This document shows positions 31,430 to 50,717 of a stretch of DNA of 64,000 nt, piece by piece. A model generated the notes under the pieces. The model was given only the letters and a program-made list of their open reading frames with translations. It did no database searches and had not been told where the DNA came from. The position numbers were made by a program, and so were the translations under genes. Each line of letters starts with the position of its first letter. The stretch's first letter is position 1. The stretch is from Rhodobacter viridis (GTDB lineage: Bacteria; Pseudomonadota; Alphaproteobacteria; Rhodobacterales; Rhodobacteraceae). Where the stretch lies: contig NZ_QJTK01000001.1 in assembly GCF_003217355.1 (NCBI RefSeq), positions 434,001 to 498,000 of the forward strand, in the 5' to 3' direction.

Positions 31430-32203
31430 TCAGAGCGCCGTCCAGCCGCCATCCACCGAAATCGTCGTGCCTGTGATCTGCGCCGCGGCTTCCGAGCACA
31501 GGAAGACCGTCGTCCCGCCCAGTTGCTCGACCGTGGCGAACTGCTTCGACGGCTGGCGCGTCAGCATCACTTCGCGGATCACCGTCTCGCGGTCCATGTT
31601 GTGCACCTTCATCTGATCGGGGATCTGCGCCTCGACCAGCGGCGTCAGCACATAGCCCGGGCAGATCGCATTGCAGGTGATCGGCTCCTCGGCGGTTTCC
31701 AGCGCCACCGTCTTCGTCAGCCCGACGACGCCGTGTTTCGCGGCGATATAGGCGGATTTGAACGGCGAGGCCGTGAGCCCATGCGCCGAGGCGATGTTGA
31801 CGACCCGCCCCCAGCCCACTTTGCGCATCATCGGCAGCGCGGCAGCGGTGGTGTGGAAAGCCGACGACAGGTTGATCGCAATAATCGCATCCCATTTCTC
31901 GACCGGGAACTGATCGACCGGCGCCACATGCTGGATGCCCGCATTGTTCACGAGGATGTCGCAACGCCCGGCCTGGGTCACCAGCGCCCGGCACTCCTCG
32001 CCTTTCGACATGTCCGCCTTGATGTAGCGCGCGTTCACCCCGAATTCGGAGCCCAGTGCCGCGGCCAGCGCATGATCCTCATCGCGATCGGTGAACGAGT
32101 TCAGCACCACATCGGCCCCGGCCCGCGCCAGTTCGCGTGCGACGCCAAGTCCGATTCCCGAGTTCGATCCGGTAATGATCGCCGTCTTGCCCTTCAGGCT
32201 CAT
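31430..32203 (-). CDS. bdhA: 3-hydroxybutyrate dehydrogenase, SDR family
   Basis: NAD-dependent oxidation of (R)-3-hydroxybutyrate to acetoacetate, part of polyhydroxybutyrate turnover. 257 residues: GSNSGIG cofactor motif, NNAGIQHVAPV, catalytic Ser in VNIASAHGL and YIAAK (Tyr-X3-Lys), and the family's C-terminal TTISVDGGWTAL. GGAGGACATC precedes ATG 32203; the open frame extends upstream to 32311 but lacks sites. The upstream region holds a promoter followed by a terminator 78 bases before the ATG, suggesting attenuation or a separate small RNA. Confidence 0.92.
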   Translation of the reverse strand: MSLKGKTAIITGSNSGIGLGVARELARAGADVVLNSFTDRDEDHALAAALGSEFGVNARYIKADMSKGEECRALVTQAGRCDILVNNAGIQHVAPVDQFPVEKWDAIIAINLSSAFHTTAAALPMMRKVGWGRVVNIASAHGLTASPFKSAYIAAKHGVVGLTKTVALETAEEPITCNAICPGYVLTPLVEAQIPDQMKVHNMDRETVIREVMLTRQPSKQFATVEQLGGTTVFLCSEAAAQITGTTISVDGGWTAL

Positions 32204-32277: not shown

Positions 32278-32355
32278 AAAGAAAAAGACGCCCGCGCAAG
32301 GCGGGCGTCAAGTCATGAGGCAGGTTTCATACAGGCAAGAAACCTATCGAGCAGT
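32278..32355 (-). ncRNA. predicted small RNA or transcription attenuator upstream of bdhA
   Basis: On the minus strand, a promoter (TTGGAA-17-TATAAA) points to a start near 32355. The roughly 75-base transcript would hold a hairpin GGTTTC (32344-32339) / GAAACC (32328-32323) with a 10-base loop TTGCCTGTAT, a short single-stranded part, and an intrinsic terminator GACGCCCGC / GCGGGCGTC followed by TTTTTCTTTC. No sensible reading frame. It could be a stand-alone sRNA or the bdhA leader with an attenuator. Confidence 0.6.
32281..32309 (-). terminator. intrinsic terminator upstream of bdhA
   Basis: Perfect 9-bp stem 32287-32295 / 32301-32309, loop of 5, followed on the minus strand by TTTTTC. 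No minus-strand protein gene precedes it. Confidence 0.8.
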
Positions 32356-32361
32356 GACTCC

Positions 32362-32390
32362 TTTATAGACCCGCGCGACGTCGCTTCCAA
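32362..32390 (-). promoter_or_regulatory. sigma-70 promoter of the small RNA/bdhA leader
   Basis: TTGGAA (32390-32385), 17-base spacer, TATAAA (32367-32362) on the minus strand. One of the best-matching promoters in the window. Confidence 0.6.
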
Positions 32391-32465
32391 GGGAAAAGTT
32401 TGCTTGCCCGCGCAGCAGGCGCTAGCTTGTCGCCTGAAAATACAGGCAAACGGGAGATTGTTGCG

Positions 32466-34289
32466 ATGCAGGGATCGGTGTTTTTCCGTGCTCTCGCCCT
32501 TGTGATATTGGCTTTCGGCGGGGTTTCGGCAGGCTTTCCGGTCCGGTCCGAACCGATGTCGGGAATCGCCATGCAAGGGAAGCCGGCCCTCGATCCGACG
32601 CGGGTGCACCTGCCCTATGCCGACCCGAATGCCCCCTCCGGCGGGCAGATTCGCATGGGCGAATCGGGCAGCTTCGATTCGCTGAACCCGTGGATCCTGC
32701 AAGGACGGCCCGCGCAGGGCATCTCGGCCTATGTCACCGAATCGCTGATGCTGCGCAGCTATGATGAGCCGTTCACCCTCTATGGCCTGCTGGCCGAAAG
32801 CATCGAAACTGACGCGCGCCGCTCGTGGGTCGCCTTCACCCTGCGCCCCGAGGCCAAGTTTTCCGATGGCAGTCCGGTCACCGTGGAGGATGTGATCTGG
32901 TCCTTTGAGACGATCGGAACCGAGGGCGCCCCGCGCTATCAGACCGCCTGGAAGAAGGTGAAGGCGATCACCCGGACCGGCCCGCGCAGTCTGCGCATCG
33001 ACTTTACCGAGCCGAACCGGGAATTGGCCCTGCTGATGGGGCTGCGCCCCGTCTTGTCGAAGAAACAGTGGCAAGGCCATGATTTTGCCTCCGAAATGCA
33101 GATGGCGCCGGTGGGCTCCGGTCCCTATGTCGTCGAGACTTATGACATGGGCCGGTCAATCACGCTCAAACGCAATCCCGACTGGTGGGCCAAGGATCTG
33201 CCGATCACGCAGGGTTTGCACCATCTCGACCGCCTGCGCTGGGACTATTTCGGCGATCAGAACGTGATGTTCGAAGCCTTCAAGGCGGGCGAGCTCGACC
33301 TTTACCGCGAGACCAATGCCGCGAACTGGCACAGCGAATATGATTTCCCGGCAGTGCAGGATGGCCGCATCCTCAAGGAGGAGATCGCCAATCACGTTCC
33401 CTCGGGGATCAAGGGGCTGGTGATGAACACGCGCAAGCCGGTCTTTGCCGACTGGCGGGTGCGGCAGGCGATGATCCTCGCCTTCAACTTCGAGTTCATG
33501 AACAGAACCCTGACCGGAGGTGCCGAGCCGCGGATCTCGTCCTATTTCGCGAATTCTGCCCTGGCGATGCAGCCCGGCCCTGCCACGGGAAAGGTCGCGG
33601 ATCTGCTTGCGCCCTATGCCGCCACTCTGCTGCCCGGCACGCTCGAAGGCTATGAATTGCCGGTCGGGGATGGCAGCACGCAGAACCGTCGCAACATGCG
33701 CGCAGCCCTGAAACTGATGGAAGAGGCGGGATGGACGGCTGCCGATGATGGCGTTTTGAAGAACGCCGCGGGCGAGCCTTTCCGGTTCGAGATCGTGCCG
33801 CAGCAGGGCGCGGCCGAATCACAATCGGTGGTCGACATCTATATCGAGGCGCTGCGGCGGCTCGGCATCTTTCCGGAGGTGACAATCGTCGATGACGCGC
33901 AATTCCAGGCCCGCAAGACGAGTTACGACTTCGACATGACCTGGATGTTCGTCGCCACGTCGCTCTCGCCCGGCAATGAGCAGTATCTTTACTGGGGATC
34001 GAAGGGCGCCGACGCGCCGGGCTCACGCAATCTGATGGGGATGCACGATCCCGCAGCCGACGCGATGATCGCGGCGCTGCTGTCGGCAGAGACGCCCGCG
34101 GATTTCACCGCCGCCGTGCAGGCGCTCGACCGGGTGCTGACCGCAGGTCGCTACGTGATCCCGATCTGGTATGCGCCGGTCACGCGGGTCGCACACAGTC
34201 GTGACCTTCACTTTCCGGCAACCGTTCCATTATACGGAGATTGGCCGGGCGTGACGCCCGATGCATGGTGGCATGAGGCGAAGAAATGA
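32466..34289 (+). CDS. extracellular solute-binding protein, family 5 (peptide/YejA-like)
   Basis: Periplasmic binding protein for an ABC importer of oligopeptides or related compounds. 607 residues: signal peptide about 1-28 (FFRALALVILAFGGVSAGFPV), then SBP_bac_5 features such as GSFDSLNPWILQG, TLRPEAKFSDGSPVTVEDVIWSF and GSGPYVVETYDMGRSITLKRNPDWW. Closest in type to microcin C/oligopeptide YejA. No permease or ATPase gene is adjacent, so it is an orphan. Start at 32466 gives the signal peptide; the frame is open back to 32400. Stop overlaps the next small gene. Confidence 0.9.
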   Translation: MQGSVFFRALALVILAFGGVSAGFPVRSEPMSGIAMQGKPALDPTRVHLPYADPNAPSGGQIRMGESGSFDSLNPWILQGRPAQGISAYVTESLMLRSYDEPFTLYGLLAESIETDARRSWVAFTLRPEAKFSDGSPVTVEDVIWSFETIGTEGAPRYQTAWKKVKAITRTGPRSLRIDFTEPNRELALLMGLRPVLSKKQWQGHDFASEMQMAPVGSGPYVVETYDMGRSITLKRNPDWWAKDLPITQGLHHLDRLRWDYFGDQNVMFEAFKAGELDLYRETNAANWHSEYDFPAVQDGRILKEEIANHVPSGIKGLVMNTRKPVFADWRVRQAMILAFNFEFMNRTLTGGAEPRISSYFANSALAMQPGPATGKVADLLAPYAATLLPGTLEGYELPVGDGSTQNRRNMRAALKLMEEAGWTAADDGVLKNAAGEPFRFEIVPQQGAAESQSVVDIYIEALRRLGIFPEVTIVDDAQFQARKTSYDFDMTWMFVATSLSPGNEQYLYWGSKGADAPGSRNLMGMHDPAADAMIAALLSAETPADFTAAVQALDRVLTAGRYVIPIWYAPVTRVAHSRDLHFPATVPLYGDWPGVTPDAWWHEAKK

Positions 34290-50483: not shown

Positions 50484-50717
50484 TCAGTCTTCGCCCTCGT
50501 ACAGAGAGATCGGCGAGCCGGGCATGATGGTCGAGATCGCGTGTTTATAGACCAGCTGCGACTGGCCATCGCGGCGCAGCAGCACGCAGAAGTTGTCGAA
50601 CCAGGTGATCACGCCCTGCAGTTTCACCCCGTTGATGAGGAAGATCGTGACCGGAACCTTGGTCTTGCGGACGTGATTGAGAAACGCATCCTGAAGGTTC
50701 TGTTTGTCGGCAGCCAT
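50484..50717 (-). CDS. hfq: RNA chaperone Hfq
   Basis: Hexameric Sm-like protein that helps sRNAs pair with mRNAs; in Rhodobacter it was first known as nrfA, needed for nifA expression. 77 residues: [29 protein letters not shown] (Sm1) and [10 protein letters not shown] (Sm2 with the KHA/YKH core). Short C-terminal tail, as in alphaproteobacteria. Stop overlaps the probable CTG start of hflX. Confidence 0.97.

Follow-up and report, generated by a model that had tools for sequence, protein, structure and literature searches.

In this work we have examined a short unit on the minus strand of the window, by which we mean the whole stretch of 64,000 nucleotides of Rhodobacter viridis DNA that was analysed. 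The unit lies upstream of bdhA, the gene for 3-hydroxybutyrate dehydrogenase, and near the start of a divergent transporter gene. Comparison across genomes makes it probable that this locus is a stand-alone, single-copy gene for a trans-acting base-pairing sRNA of about 75 nt, which is present family-wide and targets the start site of a gene encoding a Hint_2-domain protein. The properties of a trans-acting sRNA that can be read from DNA are found here, namely a promoter of its own and a Rho-independent terminator with a U-tail, both seen in the sequence and conserved, and a conserved seed which is computed to be complementary to the start region of an unlinked mRNA, that of the Hint gene.

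Anatomy of the proposed sRNA gene

The elements of the gene and its surroundings are the following, with the basis of each assignment in brackets.

32394..32402, minus strand: conserved CAAACTTTT block, which abuts the -35 element on its upstream side (a single base makes up 78-94% of each column from -46 to -38 across 152 aligned loci)
32362..32390, minus strand: promoter TTGGAA-17-TATAAA (sequence and conservation)
32281..32355, minus strand: predicted sRNA of about 75 nt, its start placed at A32355 (fold, conservation, covariance model)
32316..32355, minus strand: 40-nt core ACTGCTCGATAGGTTTCTTGCCTGTATGAAACCTGCCTCA, predicted target-pairing region (identity across genomes)
32322..32345, minus strand: hairpin AGGTTTC/GAAACCT, 7 bp (sequence, all pairs conserved)
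32281..32309, minus strand: Rho-independent terminator, 9-bp stem at 32309-32287 and U-run to 32281 (terminator scan, covariation)
31430..32203, minus strand: bdhA, downstream neighbour outside the unit (TIGR01963, 370.7 bits, cut-off 307)
32440..32449, plus strand: ATACAGGCAA in the leader of the divergent gene, complementary to all 10 nt of the sRNA loop (ends 16 nt before the ATG)
32466..34289, plus strand: divergent gene for an ABC-transporter solute-binding protein, SBP_bac_5, below SBP (PF00496)
50484..50717, minus strand: hfq (motif and translation)

In the promoter, TTGGAA (32390-32385) is separated by a 17-nt spacer from TATAAA (32367-32362), and the start of the RNA, at 32355 or a few nucleotides before it, is predicted from its distance to the promoter and from the point where conservation sets in. 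The predicted 5' end reads ACUGCUCGAU and the 10-nt loop of the hairpin is TTGCCTGTAT (32338-32329, minus strand). Among the 152 aligned loci, a TTG stands 34 or 35 nt upstream of the predicted start in 137, the TATAA columns of the -10 element are 79-98% conserved, and, of the 138 loci in which a script detected both elements, 112 have a spacing of 17. The hallmarks of RpoHI/RpoHII promoters, as given in the accessible part of PMC3441632, match this promoter only partly. We infer that the unit is transcribed and that some inducing signal governs it. The CAAACTTTT block (32402-32394) may be a putative activator site or UP-like element, judging from its position and conservation; most loci keep it and several distant loci differ.

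The fold of 32360-32275 has an energy of -34 kcal/mol (z -5.3), and none of 200 shuffles was as good. A simple scanner picked up the terminator, finding two terminator-like sites where 1.1 were expected, and the promoter was absent from the output of a simple promoter scan that requires a T at the sixth base of the -10 element. Scan counts near those of shuffles make these motifs weak on their own, and it is therefore their conservation which shows the unit to be real. No family reached its gathering score when the window was scanned with Rfam. The preliminary description had read this promoter, a unit of about 75 bases, the hairpin with its 10-base loop and the 9-bp terminator followed by a U run, all of which are borne out by the sequence and its conservation. 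Its placements were likewise accurate: 78 nt between the terminator and the bdhA ATG (at 32203), the opposite-strand SBP gene nearby, beginning at 32466, and hfq within the window.

Conservation of the unit and covariation in its terminator

A BLAST-type search with a 161-nt query against 61 genomes, in which identity of the core was not demanded, found the unit in 37 of them, that is, in all 18 genomes of the same genus and all 19 other members of the family, and in none of the 24 genomes from other families of the class. The 40-nt core was identical in 35 of the 37, and the two remaining cores (loci L035 and L037, genomes G032 and G034) carried one substitution each. Named genomes were also scanned for 36 nt of the core, exact identity being required, and at least 118 such stretches were returned; these match by construction and are excluded from the invariance count. 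Among the exact-core matches listed were Paracoccus, Ruegeria (including Ruegeria pomeroyi), Sulfitobacter, Roseobacter, Leisingera and Thioclava, and also two genomes labelled Neomegalonema, which NCBI assigns to a different family of Rhodobacterales.

A covariance model of the sRNA, built from 38 sequences, was run on a sample of 196 genomes of the order and found a single copy in every one (E <= 1.1e-19); all 196 belong to the family of the window by the definition of the tool. In a sample of 289 genomes of the class, 28 gave a match with an E value of 0.01 or less. Four of these were genomes of the same family, scoring 97-106 bits; the other 24 matches reached at most 28.3 bits and were treated as noise, nothing comparable being seen outside the family in this sample. 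By these searches the sRNA occurs throughout the family of the window, which is Rhodobacteraceae in the broad sense to judge from the named matches.

For the analysis of covariation, 38 of 128 distinct sequences were chosen for their differing terminators, a choice which favours variable stems and makes the amount of variation unrepresentative but leaves compensation representative. Standard pairs occupy 99.3% of the pair cells in these sequences. In the terminator, eight of the nine pairs have compensatory changes on both sides, and two-sided changes fill 42 cells, where the shuffles gave 7.7 (0 of 500 as many); shifting the stem partner cuts pairing to about 50% or less. The preliminary description had proposed to look for conservation and covariation in the hairpin. 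Conservation is complete, all seven pairs being kept in 38 of 38 sequences, and since the pairs never vary, covariation says nothing either way about this stem.

Complementarity to the start of a Hint_2-domain gene

The Hint_2-domain gene (PF13403) of the window genome encodes a protein of 356 residues and is located at G000:C14:43129-42062. The leader of this gene, GAGGCAGGACAUACAGGCAAUGAAGCC..., is predicted to engage most of the 40-nt core in 34 pairs between -20 and +23 of the start codon, and the loop stretch UUGCCUGUAU of the sRNA faces the leader stretch AUACAGGCAA in the predicted pairing. Cofolding of the sRNA with this leader gave -92.0 kcal/mol, compared with -28.0 and -38.3 for the two apart. 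Orthologous leaders in other genera are variants of GAGGCAG-n-CAUACAGGC-AUG.

We collected 70 Hint loci, 30 from the protein search of the family and 40 retrieved afterwards, of which four had no start or a short leader and were unusable (L316, L333, L336, L337). L270, from a second genome of the same genus, was excluded, as were, in addition to the 70, seven loci of the genus known from earlier searches, and ten entries with uncertain starts or a match to the Hint domain only were left out by hand when their leaders had already been seen, leaving 55 leaders, one per genus. The background consisted of 759 gene starts from the window and 118 named loci, called crudely as the first ATG of ORFs of at least 150 codons; a first background set held 422 starts from the window and 60 of the 118 loci. 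The mean duplex energy of the 55 Hint leaders was -35.0, against -21.9 (sd 5.1) for the 759 other starts, with 33 of the 55 below the 1st percentile of the background and 43 below the 5th. Perfect runs of at least eight consecutive pairs occurred in 35 of the 55 Hint leaders and in 17 of the 759 other starts, and runs of at least seven in 46 and 76, respectively. With the ten left-out entries included, the mean of 65 leaders was -33.9 and 46 of 65 fell below the 5th percentile; our confidence in the stand-alone sRNA was nonetheless lowered slightly because these entries had been excluded by hand after their leaders were seen.

None of 300 dinucleotide-shuffled cores paired as well as the true core over the whole region and one did so on the non-coding leader, where one of 100 mononucleotide shuffles was also slightly better than the true core. 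The match to the Hint gene lies partly in conserved codons, and the leader by itself stands out too. Nominal p-values for these comparisons go down to 2e-34 and are overstated, because Hint orthologues share ancestry, and the duplex energies, apart from the single cofold, disregard accessibility. The near invariance of the core means that compensatory changes between core and leader cannot be shown. Taken with the invariance of the core, the covariation in the terminator and the presence in 196 of 196 genomes, this complementarity gives comparative support to an earlier suggestion, that of an unannotated small RNA with a target-pairing loop.

According to the mechanism that we propose, the 10-nt loop of the core and the following CCUGCCUCA would pair with the Shine-Dalgarno and start-codon region of the Hint_2 mRNA. 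The loop would nucleate on AUACAGGCAA at the start codon, after which the hairpin stem would open and the flanking segments zip up. The start site would thus be hidden from ribosomes, which would most likely block the initiation of translation and expose the mRNA to decay. We infer that the outcome is repression, assisted by Hfq.

How far the Hint gene accounts for the conservation of the core can be judged from its own distribution. In a protein search of 100 genomes of the family, 88 had Hint matches and at least 65 had a near-full-length orthologue listed, so that 35 of the 100 had no listed full-length orthologue, although weak-end matches may be unlisted. Four genomes without a listed full-length orthologue (G018, G020, G025 and G031) carry an unchanged core. 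Since the core is kept in such genomes, further targets must exist, and the divergent SBP gene would perhaps be one of them within the genus. Both genomes with a substituted core, G032 and G034, also lack a listed full-length orthologue; their substitutions agree with a relaxed constraint, in two cases only.

Could the conserved core act in another way?

Is the divergent SBP gene, rather than the Hint gene, the main partner of the sRNA? In that case the loop would bind to ATACAGGCAA, which closely precedes the ribosome-binding site of SBP. This match is perfect over 10 nt and the genome holds just four such sites, namely the sRNA itself, the SBP leader, a site before ftsW and one across the start codon of the Hint_2 gene; moreover, SBP is retained as a neighbour more constantly than bdhA, being adjacent in 141 of 148 testable loci. 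However, the exact site is present in only 3 of 37 genomes (L001, L008, L009), with versions of 7-8 nt in a few others, and the mean duplex energy of SBP start regions was -21.0 over 142 loci against -21.9 for background starts, a rough comparison since the SBP regions were 60 nt long against 78 nt and some starts were guessed. SBP as the main target, which we consider unlikely, was dropped on the ground that the site decays outside the window genome and two relatives. Its leader match suggests that it may instead be a lineage-specific target in the genus of the window.

It is also rather improbable that the RNA is not mainly a regulator of mRNAs and serves instead as a sponge partner or binds a protein, its core being kept constant by that other RNA or protein. 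The strict invariance over 40 nt and the lack of a listed Hint gene in 35 of the 100 sampled genomes would suit such a role, and sponging within an alpha-proteobacterial sRNA family is described for CrfA and SisA-D in the accessible part of PMC12559287. The conserved complementarity to Hint starts would, however, have to be explained otherwise.

The position of the unit had also led to the proposal that it could be a regulated bdhA leader, for example an attenuator tied to PHB or carbon status, at which transcription stops at the terminator unless a signal permits read-through into bdhA. The bdhA ATG follows the terminator closely in the window, and among 155 oriented loci (37 from the BLAST-type search and 118 with an exact core, at least one genome being present twice) bdhA comes next in 110 of the 140 that are testable. 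A cis-acting attenuator would be expected to be linked to its gene constantly, whereas in the other 30 testable loci the unit is still present with no bdhA within 600 nt; in seven of these bdhA lies 1.1-2.3 kb downstream, and in 23 there is none within the flank examined. In 114 loci the start of the sRNA and the bdhA ATG are anywhere between 120 and 581 nt apart, and in 68 of 115 loci a TGCnGCA-type motif separates the terminator from bdhA. Also speaking against read-through control are the complementarity of the core to an unlinked gene, Hint_2, and the fold of the unit alone (32360-32275), in which no structure rivals the terminator. The synteny led us to drop this proposal, which we regard as very unlikely; pairing at bdhA starts, too, is barely above average, with a mean duplex energy of -24.5 over 114 loci, slightly below the background of -21.9. 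The case illustrates how attenuation may wrongly be read into a terminator that precedes a metabolic gene.

Two observations on bdhA itself may be added. The motifs upstream of it (TGCnGCA/GCAGCAT/ATGCTGC; for example in L023, L025 and L064), which were found in 4 of 115 loci in one shuffle, are possibly PhaR-type operators, as we assume; they are absent from the gap between terminator and bdhA in the window. The bdhA start of the window (32242-32170, minus strand) forms a duplex of -35.0 with the core, the fourth lowest when set against the 422 starts of the first background set, and the sRNA may have a species-level effect on this bdhA.

That the locus encodes a small peptide (ATGAAACCTGCCTCATGA, MKPAS) is hardly credible and was set aside: an ATG does lie within the hairpin and its frame stops after 5-7 codons in 29 of 37 genomes, giving MKPAS in 20, but the frame runs on into the terminator in 7 of the 37 and lacks the ATG in one, no Shine-Dalgarno sequence is read ahead of it, and its first five codons lie inside a core that is fixed far beyond them in the 5' direction.

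Relation to known sRNAs

The stand-alone sRNA was compared with sRNAs already described in alpha-proteobacteria. StsR (RSs0827) of Rhodobacter sphaeroides, a 72-nt Hfq-associated sRNA according to the available part of PMC8307010 and termed an orphan in that of PMC8625941, was a strong first guess on the grounds of length and Hfq. Both are alpha-proteobacterial sRNAs of similar size, 72 nt and a predicted 75 nt or so. StsR was excluded by the sequence of Northern probe p-0827, as printed in the accessible part of PMC3688512, the complement of which shares no more than four consecutive nucleotides with our sRNA.

The alpha-R8 family (MmgR/SisA-D, RF00519) was pursued from a sub-threshold Rfam match. 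The partially available texts of PMC7143759 and PMC12559287 describe MmgR as a 77-nt RNA that limits PHB and alpha-R8 sRNAs as Hfq-associated and provided with a terminator. Our sRNA shares the terminator and a weak full-length match of 24.9 bits, but this is below the gathering score of 41, the single-stranded 10-mer UUUCCUCCCU, as defined in the available part of PMC12559287, is absent from it, and its neighbours are bdhA and SBP, not a gene for N-formylglutamate amidohydrolase. The identity was rejected for its score, its missing 10-mer and its different locus. The best RF00519-like match of the genome lies elsewhere, at G000:C1:390099-390177, with 29.1 bits, also below the cut-off of 41, and may be a diverged alpha-R8 RNA.

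Two further sRNAs of R. sphaeroides, from the same bacterial family, were ruled out as identities: the SorY model (RF02651) scores our sRNA at 16.9 bits against a cut-off of 111, and the CcsR (RF02791) motif CCUCCUCCC is absent from it. AbcR and GcvB are small RNAs whose unpaired seed covers the start sites of mRNAs for transporters and other proteins. For our sRNA the main target predicted is a Hint-domain gene instead, and a relation in sequence to these two was checked by the Rfam scan only.

The accessible part of PMC8625941 gives 79 listed sRNAs for R. sphaeroides, 38 of them orphan, and our sRNA may already be numbered in that catalogue. The sRNA tables of Ruegeria pomeroyi (PMC4809877) and Paracoccus denitrificans (PMC5107571), in the parts available, held no entry tied to the locus. 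A search of the literature for strings of the sRNA found them in one insect paper and in no related paper; probes printed with spaces and supplements are invisible to such a search.

What could be the role of so invariant an RNA? We suggest tentatively, as a reading that is quite possible though short of probable, that it is a core sRNA of the family, one per genome, with a 40-nt 5' region held constant by a broad, conserved regulon, 34 bases of this region pairing at the Hint start. It would then be a core regulator of the family at the post-transcriptional level, one whose target is concrete and testable, and, by a conjecture made without comparison, one of the least variable base-pairing sRNAs in alphaproteobacteria. 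It would also provide a regulator for the Hint protein, for which our literature search found none (Hint domain, sRNA and Rhodobacter together gave no result), and with it a first handle on a common Hint-domain protein of the family. The family includes abundant marine and freshwater bacteria as well as laboratory models.

Other complements of the loop

The loop complement ATACAGGCAA was also counted across genomes. In the 18 genomes of the same genus it occurs 79 times, 18 of these in the sRNA, as compared with 15 occurrences of the reversed pattern, an excess which is partly one orthologous site counted repeatedly and which includes some sites within coding sequence. The corresponding numbers are 61 (seven being the sRNA) against 23 in seven other genomes of the family, and 56 against 39 in 16 genomes from other families, which lack the sRNA.

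Searches for further shared targets gave weak candidates only, their conservation not being established. A double-site pattern matched 8 of 149 genomes of the family and was too strict, and the pattern GAGGCAGGN{0,15}ATG resembles a Shine-Dalgarno sequence and was uninformative. A recurrent match inside the gene of an apparent M23-type peptidase was set aside as coding constraint. In the window genome, the leader of ftsW (G000:C18:21022-21031, L041) contains the 10-nt loop complement, beginning 26 nt before the ATG, and the ftsW leaders of several relatives (among L190-L210) have GAGGCAG at that place instead. ACAGGCAA sites recur in close relatives just upstream of ruvC-like (L375, L401) and YbjN-type (L376, L393) genes, names which, like that of ftsW, we assigned from reading the proteins. 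Some genomes of the genus carry seed matches ahead of the starts of ftsW, ruvC and the YbjN-type gene, and these three are weak candidate targets of the sRNA.
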